From NCBI RefSeq assembly GCF_013390595.1, contig NZ_JACAWV010000023.1, forward strand, positions 62,001 through 126,000: a stretch of 64,000 nt of DNA. Reading direction: 5' to 3'. Within the stretch, counting starts at the first letter, position 1. Each line of letters opens with the position of its first letter. Shown in pieces: positions 1-2,021 of the stretch. Both the position numbers and the translations under genes were made by a program. The notes below the pieces were generated by a model. The model made no database searches. It saw nothing but the letters and a program-made list of their open reading frames with translations, and was not told the origin of the DNA. This DNA comes from Rhizobium sp. RM (GTDB lineage: Bacteria; Pseudomonadota; Alphaproteobacteria; Rhizobiales; Rhizobiaceae).

Positions 1-1714
1 TGTGTAATGGTTTGACGACGCCACCCGCGAACTCAACGTCCTCAAGCGAGATGGTGAAGGCCTCTGTGGTAGACAGCGCAACTTTTGCGCGCTCTACCTC
101 TCGCTCTAAGCTGAGCTCAGAATAGCTTATTACGGGCGACACACCGAGCCGCCTAGATTTGATCAACCCAACAACAAAGTCCTTAAGCGCAAGATCAAAA
201 TCGATACCTCCGAGCTTTGCATCGCCACTCGACGCAAGAACCTTAAATTCGATGCGCCTAGTGAGAGCATCCTCACTATTGAGGTCGATACTCAGCGCAT
301 CGTCTTCGAGTTCCCATTCTATATCCTCAACCTTGGCGTAAACCACTGCCACGTCAAGCGTGCCCCCTCCCATATCGACAACCAAAACATGTTTATCGGA
401 GTAAGACACTTCACTGGCGCGCTGTCCGGTTTGGAAGGAGGATAAGACGTTGAATGCGGCAGCCGTCGGTTCAGGTATGATTCTTTCGACCCGAACGCCG
501 GTAGCCTGGACGCAATCGACAATTCGCGACACGTCTAGAATATTGTAGTCGGTTGGAATTGAAAGAACGCAACGCCGGGCTTTTGTTCCCGTTGTGTGCT
601 GGAAGGTGTCAATGAGCGAGCGTATGACAAGCATTGCATACTGATCGGGTCGCAGCCCCTTATCGTCAGCTGCGTCTTCGAAAACGCGCGATAACAAACG
701 CCTCTTCGCATATCGGGATGTAACACCAGAAAAGTGGTCAACGCCAACCTCGTAGTTCCCATCCCCAAAAAACCTTACCGTGGAAGGCATGCAAATTTTG
801 CCGCTACCATCTCTGATAAACTCGTAGCCGGAAGCCGTTCCATATGCCAAAATCGATTTGGTCGTTCCAAAATCAATAACTACAGGTAACGGGAAGTCTG
901 GAAGAAATGTCTCCTCCTGCCTGAGCTTCACCTCTCGGCCCACCCACGGTGGCAAATAAAGGCGATCCGAGAGCTTCGATATCGGGAGGACGAAATCTCT
1001 AGCATTATCGCCCAAGATCGAAACTGGCGTTTGAGAAGGAATACGTAGCCGAGCGCAGGTGCTGGGCACGTGCCTTGCCAAAAAGTCTCCGAGTTCGTGC
1101 AATCGGCGGCAGTCAAATTCCAGTTCAAGCGCTTCTGATAGACAGTAAGTAAAGACACCCCCTTCAATATTGCCGTGCTCGCGAGCCGCCGCCCTAGCAT
1201 CCGTAGAGAAGAACACCGCGAGGTTCGAACCTTCCGCGAATGAGATGAGTGGAATTAGCGGTTCAGTCGCTGCCGGATAATTGAAGTTATCCCGGCAGGC
1301 ATCAATGAAAACGAGAATCGTCTTTGCGTTGATCTCGCAACATTTTCGTATCAGTGTGGCAAGTGAAATCGACGTTTCAGGAAGGGCGCCATAAACTGCG
1401 TCCTGAGGGATCAGATAGTCTTGACCTTGATCCGATCGGAAGCCGTGTCCACTGAAGTAGAAAACGAAAGCCTCCAGCGGTGGACCATTCCGAAACTGTT
1501 CGAACGCATCAAGACGCTTAAATATGGTGCTGCGACTTGACAAAAAATCTATCTGATTATTATCGCTCGTACAACAAACCGCAGCCTCCTTGTCGAAGCT
1601 CGAGGTTTTAATGAATTGTCCGCGCGCCTTTCTTGCGTCGGCGTCGGCGTACGATAGAGATGGTATCCGAGGGTCACTATATTCAGCGACACCGACAAAA
1701 AGGCCCGCCCTCAT
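1..1714 (-). CDS. Caspase-like peptidase fused to Hsp70-type ATPase (C-terminus beyond window edge)
   Basis: The frame is open without a stop from an ATG at 1714 to the left edge (571 codons seen). The N-terminal third reads as a C14 caspase/metacaspase fold: it starts with a GLFVGVAEY strand, has the catalytic His in FYFSGHG (His90) and the catalytic Cys in IDACRDN (Cys140). After about residue 275 an Hsp70/DnaK nucleotide-binding domain follows: phosphate-1 IDFGTTKS (280-287), EPTAAA (415-420), phosphate-2 VVDMGGGT (445-452) and GDAKLGGIDFD (497-507). GAGG lies about 10 bases before the ATG and an in-frame TAG lies just upstream, so the start is firm. It sits 10 bp behind the small gene at 1725, an operon. 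Inference: a chaperone-like ATPase gates a death protease. The substrate-binding part of Hsp70 is outside the window. Codon use looks more A/T-rich by eye than in the pectin genes, hinting at transfer. Confidence 0.85.
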   Translation of the reverse strand, partial: MRAGLFVGVAEYSDPRIPSLSYADADARKARGQFIKTSSFDKEAAVCCTSDNNQIDFLSSRSTIFKRLDAFEQFRNGPPLEAFVFYFSGHGFRSDQGQDYLIPQDAVYGALPETSISLATLIRKCCEINAKTILVFIDACRDNFNYPAATEPLIPLISFAEGSNLAVFFSTDARAAAREHGNIEGGVFTYCLSEALELEFDCRRLHELGDFLARHVPSTCARLRIPSQTPVSILGDNARDFVLPISKLSDRLYLPPWVGREVKLRQEETFLPDFPLPVVIDFGTTKSILAYGTASGYEFIRDGSGKICMPSTVRFFGDGNYEVGVDHFSGVTSRYAKRRLLSRVFEDAADDKGLRPDQYAMLVIRSLIDTFQHTTGTKARRCVLSIPTDYNILDVSRIVDCVQATGVRVERIIPEPTAAAFNVLSSFQTGQRASEVSYSDKHVLVVDMGGGTLDVAVVYAKVEDIEWELEDDALSIDLNSEDALTRRIEFKVLASSGDAKLGGIDFDLALKDFVVGLIKSRRLGVSPVISYSELSLEREVERAKVALSTTEAFTISLEDVEFAGGVVKPLH

Positions 1715-1724
1715 TGGCAGAACC

Positions 1725-2021
1725 TCAACGAGGGGCTAGCTTTACTTCTATTGCTCCTTTCGCTTCCGCGCCTGCCGCAGCGACGAGGCGTACTTCCCCT
1801 TTGACCGTGATCTCAAATTTTAAAGAGATTTCTTTCAAAGTCAGGCTTTTAGCACCAAGCTCAGAGCTATCGAATACGGTAGAAACTGTCTGCAAGGCTG
1901 CTCTGAATTGATCCCTCAATGTTTCGGAGCTGATTTGGGTGAGAACACCCTCAGCGCCTCGCTGAGCCATTGATTTTGTGCCTTCATTATCTGCACCGGC
2001 AATTACGTTTATCATCGGCAT
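1725..2021 (-). CDS. Small Pepco/Trypco-like protein partnering the caspase-Hsp70 gene
   Basis: 98 aa, no signal peptide or membrane segment. An N-terminal helical part is followed by a C-terminal beta-rich stretch (LKEISLKFEITVKGEVRL, then AAAGAEAKGAIEVKL). This pattern resembles the small peptidase-co-occurring domains (Pepco/Trypco families) described in bacterial NTP-dependent conflict systems next to caspases or trypsin-like proteases. AAGG stands 7 bases before the ATG at 2021. It is the first gene of the two-gene unit with the caspase-Hsp70 fusion, 10 bp apart, so the two are probably co-translated. Family assignment is by eye only; a profile search could instead leave it as an orphan. 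No enzymatic residues are apparent, which suits a binding or adaptor role. Confidence 0.6.
   Translation of the reverse strand: MPMINVIAGADNEGTKSMAQRGAEGVLTQISSETLRDQFRAALQTVSTVFDSSELGAKSLTLKEISLKFEITVKGEVRLVAAAGAEAKGAIEVKLAPR

Follow-up and report, generated by a model that had tools for sequence, protein, structure and literature searches.

A caspase-Hsp70 fusion encoded beside the small protein Pepco in Rhizobium sp. RM, a possible chaperone-gated caspase module

At the left edge of the window, by which we mean the whole stretch of 64,000 nucleotides analysed (G000:C22:62001-126000), two genes were found adjacent to each other, the first encoding a protein of the Pepco family and the second a caspase fused to an Hsp70. 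On balance we favour the reading that the two genes form a module of conflict or regulated cell death in which a chaperone unit gates a caspase, and that this module is rare among genomes and was probably gained by horizontal transfer. The domains, the catalytic residues, the gene order, the swapping of partners, the rarity and the GC anomaly on which this reading is based were all observed directly.

The gene pair and its domains

The gene encoding Pepco (98 aa, Pfam PF24393) is the first of the pair and lies at 1725..2021 on the minus strand (L008:18725-19021). The caspase-Hsp70 gene corresponds to the open frame 2-1714 (minus strand), which crosses the left edge of the window, so that its 5' two thirds are within it (1..1714, 571 of 845 codons) and the remainder extends leftward to G000:C22:61177. 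The left flank, fetched from the parent contig G000:C22, completes the gene at 845 aa without an internal stop (L008:16177-18714, minus strand). The two genes are separated by a 10-bp spacer, which together with the Pepco stop codon occupies 1715..1727 (minus strand). This stop codon, TGA, is inside a TGAGG stretch directly 5' of the caspase ATG, a stretch that could serve as the ribosome-binding site of the caspase gene and couple the translation of the two. Together with the AGAAGG placed 5' of the Pepco ATG and the short spacer, it makes a coupled two-gene operon likely.

Just left of the window (L008:15625-16051, G000:C22:60625-61051) there are short overlapping frames with a weak match to alpha/beta-hydrolases (Abhydrolase_6, 0.0083, below the cut-off). 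They end shortly before the caspase-Hsp70 gene and look like a decayed gene beside an acquired pair.

The caspase domain comprises approximately residues 1-240 (995..1714, minus strand) and is recognized by Pfam as Peptidase_C14 at residues 5-216 (1e-9, 38.9 bits against a cut-off of 21.4). The first-pass annotation had located a catalytic dyad at His90 and Cys140, and it is exactly there, in the motifs SGHG (codon 1445..1447, minus strand) and DACRD (codon 1295..1297, minus strand); moreover it is kept in 10 of the 10 caspase-bearing rows of the window's clade. In the model these N-terminal 240 residues have mostly high pLDDT, and the fold-search lists for the whole protein were filled by Hsp70.

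The Hsp70 nucleotide-binding domain, also proposed in the first-pass annotation and confirmed here by Pfam (1.1e-29, 103.6 bits against a cut-off of 20.6) and by the model, starts at residue 276 (2..889, minus strand) and ends outside the window. Its ATPase residues are conserved: five positions, which we take to be the catalytic residues of DnaK, are invariant in 27 of 27 alignment rows. According to sequence and model, the Hsp70 unit consists of this ATPase domain, a linker and a beta substrate-binding domain, the last placed by the model and by fold alignments at approximately residues 676-805 (outside the window, within L008:16177-17000, minus strand). The helical lid (SBD alpha) is absent, as the chain ends about 40 residues past the beta domain, its last 22 residues have pLDDT below 50 and the fold alignments end near DnaK 505. 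Without a lid, client trapping of the usual type is unlikely. The presence of the beta domain nevertheless makes the unit a possible client sensor, beyond a mere NTP switch.

The 98-aa protein passes the Pfam cut-off for Pepco (2.7e-15, 57.3 bits against 27) and stays just below that for Trypco1 (24.3 bits against 24.6), and Pfam, searched up to E 1, gave no match to EACC1 (PF19953). The size, the spacing and the Pepco-like character given earlier for this protein therefore stand; its description as beta-rich finds little backing in the AF2 model, which is poor (pLDDT 55.4) and has one 21-residue helix plus strands. A chance open reading frame or a misreading was ruled out by the curated cut-offs and by the conservation across phyla.

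Relatives and conservation of the pair

A search of 5.8 billion proteins with the large protein gave 453 matches. Among the best 120 of these, P0001-P0008 (the query included) stand out with E values of at most 4e-45, and relatives listed there align over 97% of the length with 47-50% identity. Seven of these eight proteins have the caspase; P0005 (572 aa) has an Hsp70 within the window's clade and no caspase domain at all. In a scan of genome contigs, in which the best 80 of 126 loci were mostly Hsp70 without caspase, the only clear relatives among those were L010 and L011 (Streptomyces) and L012 (Streptacidiphilus). In all three Pepco is directly upstream, overlapping by 4 bases in L010 and L012 and 3 bp apart in L011, and the pair is thus kept between Alphaproteobacteria and Streptomyces/Streptacidiphilus. 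In addition, the Pepco proteins P0122 and P0123 are very likely encoded next to P0003 (Bradyrhizobium sp. GM2.2) and P0002, respectively, because the lengths of their longest contigs agree. For P0004-P0008 (5 of the 11 clade proteins) no partner was matched among 105 Pepco proteins, a weak test in which the contigs of L010 and L012 are missing as well. The first-pass annotation had named three outcomes that would speak against it, and the opposite was found for each: both domains have homologues, the two genes are neighbours in relatives such as L010-L012 and the dyad is conserved.

In L010 (Streptomyces melanogenes) the pair shares its contig with an EACC1-type caspase gene (L130) situated about 5 kb away, which makes a small cluster of conflict genes.

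The partners of Pepco

In the Streptomyces sample 34 Pepco places were found, of which 31 were read (G1248:C28, G1347 and G1166 were left out). The partners in these 31 loci are caspase-Hsp70 (2), caspase-Hsp90-like proteins (14, and one broken), other caspases (4), CHAT proteases (9) and one unassigned (L209). Pepco adjoins the caspase or CHAT gene in 29 of the 31, with the caspase gene of L198 beginning 1.3 kb away; the nine CHAT proteases (Pfam 9/9) stand upstream of Pepco. The four other caspases are those of L202-L205 (Pfam 4/4), and in the one at L202:2293-3801 the C-terminal part matches DnaG_DnaB_bind (38.1 bits against a cut-off of 29.1), a further kind of C-terminal module.

In the 14 caspase-Hsp90-like proteins the caspase is followed by iHD-CE (Pfam 14/14) and then by the Hsp90-like module. 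This module has wHTH-HSP90_Na-assoc in 12 of the 14 and the N-box/DNG-G-M motif pair in 13, the fourteenth being assigned through 55% identity. HATPase_c_3 was matched in three of the 14 only, each time below the cut-off, so that "Hsp90-like" is a name of fitting strength. The caspase is called by Pfam in 11 of the 14 and was recognized in L193, L206 and L208 by a custom profile and the dyad; in L200, where Pfam calls the caspase, the scripted dyad search caught another S-A-H-G and hence gave no Cys. Two Pepco-linked loci of this kind, L196 with a broken reading frame and L199, which is broken and has no recognizable caspase, may represent sequencing errors or decay.

Pepco is not confined to peptidase neighbours. 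In the proteobacterium G462 (L100) it adjoins a gene encoding a patatin-like phospholipase (Pfam 1.9e-37), with PADLOC matches to phospholipase effectors. Pepco thus accompanies the effector enzyme regardless of the kind of switch joined to it, and even where there is none. Mainly for this reason we assign it to the protease rather than to the Hsp70, and its role is more probably that of a partner, a regulator or a substrate of the protease than that of a co-factor of Hsp70. The first-pass annotation had assigned the Hsp70 the role of NTP switch or sensor of protein damage and the small protein that of adaptor or activator; this is supported in part, the Hsp70 being a possible client sensor besides an NTP switch and Pepco going with the protease.

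Separate origins of the caspase-Hsp70 fusions

With custom profiles, 38 of 124 proteins were found to carry both caspase and Hsp70. Three such proteins from outside the window's clade were tested (P0015, P0046 and P0017) and all pass the cut-off of 140 for the EACC1-associated caspase (NF047832), as does the caspase-DnaK protein of L133 (166.6 bits), whose upstream gene encodes EACC1 (31.4 bits against a cut-off of 23.6). The window's clade fails the same cut-off, with 43 bits for the window's protein, 73.1 for L010 and 72.0 for L012.

In a quick-type Hsp70 tree of a subsample of 58 of 209 rows, the window's clade is a single group (SH-aLRT 99) with 11 Pepco-type rows, and the EACC1-labelled fusions are apart from it, near ordinary DnaK. 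The latter label denotes rows outside the Pepco clade that combine a caspase with Hsp70, and only in L133 was EACC1 actually seen as the partner; P0012, labelled as being without caspase, groups among them. Forcing the two kinds of Hsp70 into one clade costs 184.8 log units (AU p 5.6e-77) in a quick-type tree of 40 rows, from which the long-branched PT_P0008, HS_L006, HS_L016 and HS_L057 were dropped and for which the groups were chosen after the first Hsp70 tree. The caspase tree (58 rows, likewise subsampled and of the quick type) also places the Pepco-linked and the EACC1-type caspases on two sides (97), the row L010_2415, labelled Pepco_Hsp70, being actually the EACC1-type caspase of L130. 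On the Pepco-linked side, with which the TPR caspase P0031 groups, the Hsp90-like fusions group together with the other ones (96), beside the Hsp70 fusions (87 with P0031). Given the model and the sampling, the trees point to at least two separate fusions of Hsp70 with caspases.

At the EACC1-type loci L103-L132 no fused Hsp70 was found within their short flanks (0 of 30), and 82 Streptomycetaceae genomes gave one full-length caspase-DnaK match (G1054). A different arrangement was observed in P0037 (1290 aa), which combines a caspase, the central and C-terminal domains of DnaJ and a near full-length HSP70 in a single chain.

Distribution and acquisition

Pepco of the window type was found in 1 of 397 genomes of the order, which is the window's own genome. 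The family as a whole is present in 2 of 398 genomes of the phylum, in 4 of 246 Actinomycetota genomes (2 above the cut-off) and in 33 of 343 Streptomyces genomes (32 above the cut-off). Weak Pepco-like matches in G871 and G947 (L101 and L102) are below the cut-off, as is one in the control genome of Methanosarcina acetivorans.

The GC content of the pair is 0.503, against 0.561 +/- 0.018 in 197 surrounding segments of 2,845 bases, of which one, counting the pair's own stretch, is as low. Moreover, the third-position GC amounts to 0.54 and 0.43 in the two genes, whereas three neighbours have 0.60-0.62. The low GC of the pair, whose Pepco was found in a single one of the 397 genomes of the order, makes its acquisition probable. 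Linkage to an island, raised in the first-pass annotation as a point to check, is borne out as far as an atypical GC stretch that fits acquisition; of the markers of an island, no tRNA was found in the window, L008 or L009, and no defence or mobility gene was recognized at the locus, where PADLOC, run on the two proteins only, gave a generic caspase match. No plasmid match was obtained for the large protein at E 1e-20, and no plasmid or phage match for Pepco at E 0.01. No empty site came to light in 81 genomes of the family; the left flank had only short matches (50-153 bases) in four other genomes, while for the right flank one genome gave a GH88 match (about 1 kb, 69%) and three more gave short pieces.

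Comparison with known systems

The EACC1 systems (System 4 of Kaur et al. 2020, PMC7159879, in the part of the text available) resemble the window pair in that a small 5' gene precedes one whose product has a caspase at its N-terminus and a variable domain at its C-terminus, and the small partner is proposed there as activator of the caspase; Hsp70 is not mentioned as such a C-terminal domain in the available System 4 text. A caspase-DnaK version does exist (L133), from which the window pair differs in that the trees place its caspase as well as its Hsp70 outside the EACC1 groups. An assignment of the pair to the EACC1 two-gene system was rejected, the caspase having 43 bits against the 140 of NF047832 and the partner being Pepco. 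The small genes encoding Trypco1, which accompany trypsin-like peptidases (PMC7159879 and PMC10907252, available portions), are like Pepco partners of a protease, although with Pepco the protease is a caspase or CHAT and no MoxR-vWA ternary core stands beside the window pair.

In the Pepco caspase-iHD-CE-Hsp90-like proteins of Streptomyces the arrangement is that of the window pair, with Pepco first, a caspase from the same side of the tree and then a chaperone-type ATPase. They differ in having the Hsp90-like module, iHD-CE and wHTH repeats in the place of Hsp70 and in their size of about 1,500-1,770 aa. HSP90- and HSP70-related modules were reportedly described by Nicastro et al. 2023 as analogues of STAND and GTPase switches that are tied to proteolysis-linked effectors; those systems reportedly couple a chaperone-type ATPase to an effector, as the window protein does according to Pfam and the model. 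Pepco, HD-CE, iHD-CE and wHTH-HSP90_Na-assoc, Pfam families of the PF243xx-PF244xx range that recur in the loci found here, presumably derive from that work.

CnuD and CnuCD of the CoCoNuT systems (PMC11090510, accessible part) also contain Hsp70-like NBD/SBD units and belong to a predicted defence system; as described in that part they are fused to McrB/McrC-type proteins, their ATPase motifs are variably degenerate and they have no caspase protease. Canu (PMC12799240, text available in part) is a small operon with a bacterial caspase whose catalysis was shown to be necessary for defence, but there the caspase is MALT1-like and comes with an Ig-like fold, a pro-nuclease partner and no Hsp70. 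An Hsp70 in the position of the switch is not as uncommon a design as the first-pass annotation supposed, given the EACC1 caspase-DnaK proteins, the NBD/SBD units of CoCoNuT (PMC11090510, as far as its text was accessible) and the more frequent Pepco caspase-Hsp90-like proteins. Experimental work on Pepco or on the caspase-Hsp70 pair did not surface among the literature matches listed, in which subscription papers are thinly covered.

Proposed working and alternatives

The manner in which the pair would work, including the direction of the switch, the ATP-gated sensing of clients, the release of the caspase, the role of Pepco and the outcome for the cell, is inferred from the features described above. 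In the resting, ATP-bound form the two lobes of Hsp70 would be docked and the caspase off. Infection by phage or damage to proteins would expose a client peptide, which would bind to the Hsp70 unit, perhaps after delivery by a J-protein of the host; ATP would be hydrolysed, the lobes would undock or the protein assemble, and the caspase would be freed. The freed caspase would then cut one or a few chosen proteins, and the cell would be arrested or die. Pepco, which the shared transcript also encodes, would be the constant partner of the protease, as an adaptor, a brake or a first substrate.

The same proteins could instead serve protein quality control, the Hsp70 unit bringing misfolded proteins to the fused protease for trimming with no immune role. 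An ATPase and a beta substrate-binding domain that are intact in sequence and model, and the resemblance of P0037 to a chaperone machine, would suit this explanation. We nevertheless think it unlikely, considering the very patchy distribution, the GC anomaly and the occurrence of Pepco with CHAT and patatin that have no chaperone unit; moreover caspases are limited endopeptidases rather than degraders. Somewhat less credence is given to a toxin-antitoxin arrangement, in which Pepco would be an antitoxin-like inhibitor whose loss is sensed by the Hsp70 unit. The small gene does come first, on the same strand and at 10 bp, and Pepco is the constant small partner of varied hydrolases, the patatin phospholipase included, but a plain antitoxin system needs no conserved catalytic Hsp70 engine, and P0124 and several metagenomic Pepco genes are on contigs too short for judgement.

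It is also conceivable, though improbable to a further degree, that the Hsp70 unit senses RNA or ribosomes instead of peptide clients, as proposed for CnuD of CoCoNuT, whose Hsp70-like NBD/SBD units are suggested to bind RNA (PMC11090510, available part). The divergent and lidless substrate domain of the window protein would agree with this, whereas the catalytic residues are here invariant (27 of 27 rows) and the ATPase motifs of CnuD are variably degenerate in the same part of that source. Least probable of all appears a decaying or inert acquisition without present function: the decayed-looking alpha/beta-hydrolase gene adjoins the pair and Pepco occurs in only 1 of 397 genomes of the order, yet both frames are intact and all the catalytic residues are kept.

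Meaning of the finding

Pepco has already been named by Pfam and NCBI, and the EACC1-type caspase-Hsp70 proteins by NCBI, and Hsp70 and Hsp90 modules had reportedly already been predicted as immune switches (Nicastro 2023). This analysis adds the substrate domain that lacks a lid, the pair in Alphaproteobacteria, the count of Pepco's partners and the two origins of caspase-Hsp70 fusions. The independent capture of Hsp70 by two caspase lineages whose small partners differ, along with the exchange of Hsp70 and Hsp90 behind one partner family, suggests a design rule and not an accident. With only two genes in 2.8 kb, the alphaproteobacterial pair is compact and would be convenient to express in a laboratory strain.

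If the Hsp70 unit gates the caspase as favoured here, a well-understood ATP-driven peptide sensor would be wired straight to a death protease. This would offer a testable route by which infection is sensed through protein folding, comparable with the guarding of DnaJ by bNACHT25, whose sensing of phage depends on DnaJ (PMC12169576, as stated in its available part). A broader idea, which we put forward tentatively and regard as rather doubtful, is that chaperone ATPases were recruited independently and several times as the sensor-switch of caspases, in Pepco caspase-Hsp70, Pepco caspase-Hsp90-like and EACC1 caspase-DnaK, with Pepco and EACC1 exchangeable and with the binding of clients, from proteotoxic overload or phage assembly intermediates, as the trigger. 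If this were true, such proteins would be "chaperone inflammasomes" responding directly to damaged protein rather than to a pathogen molecule.
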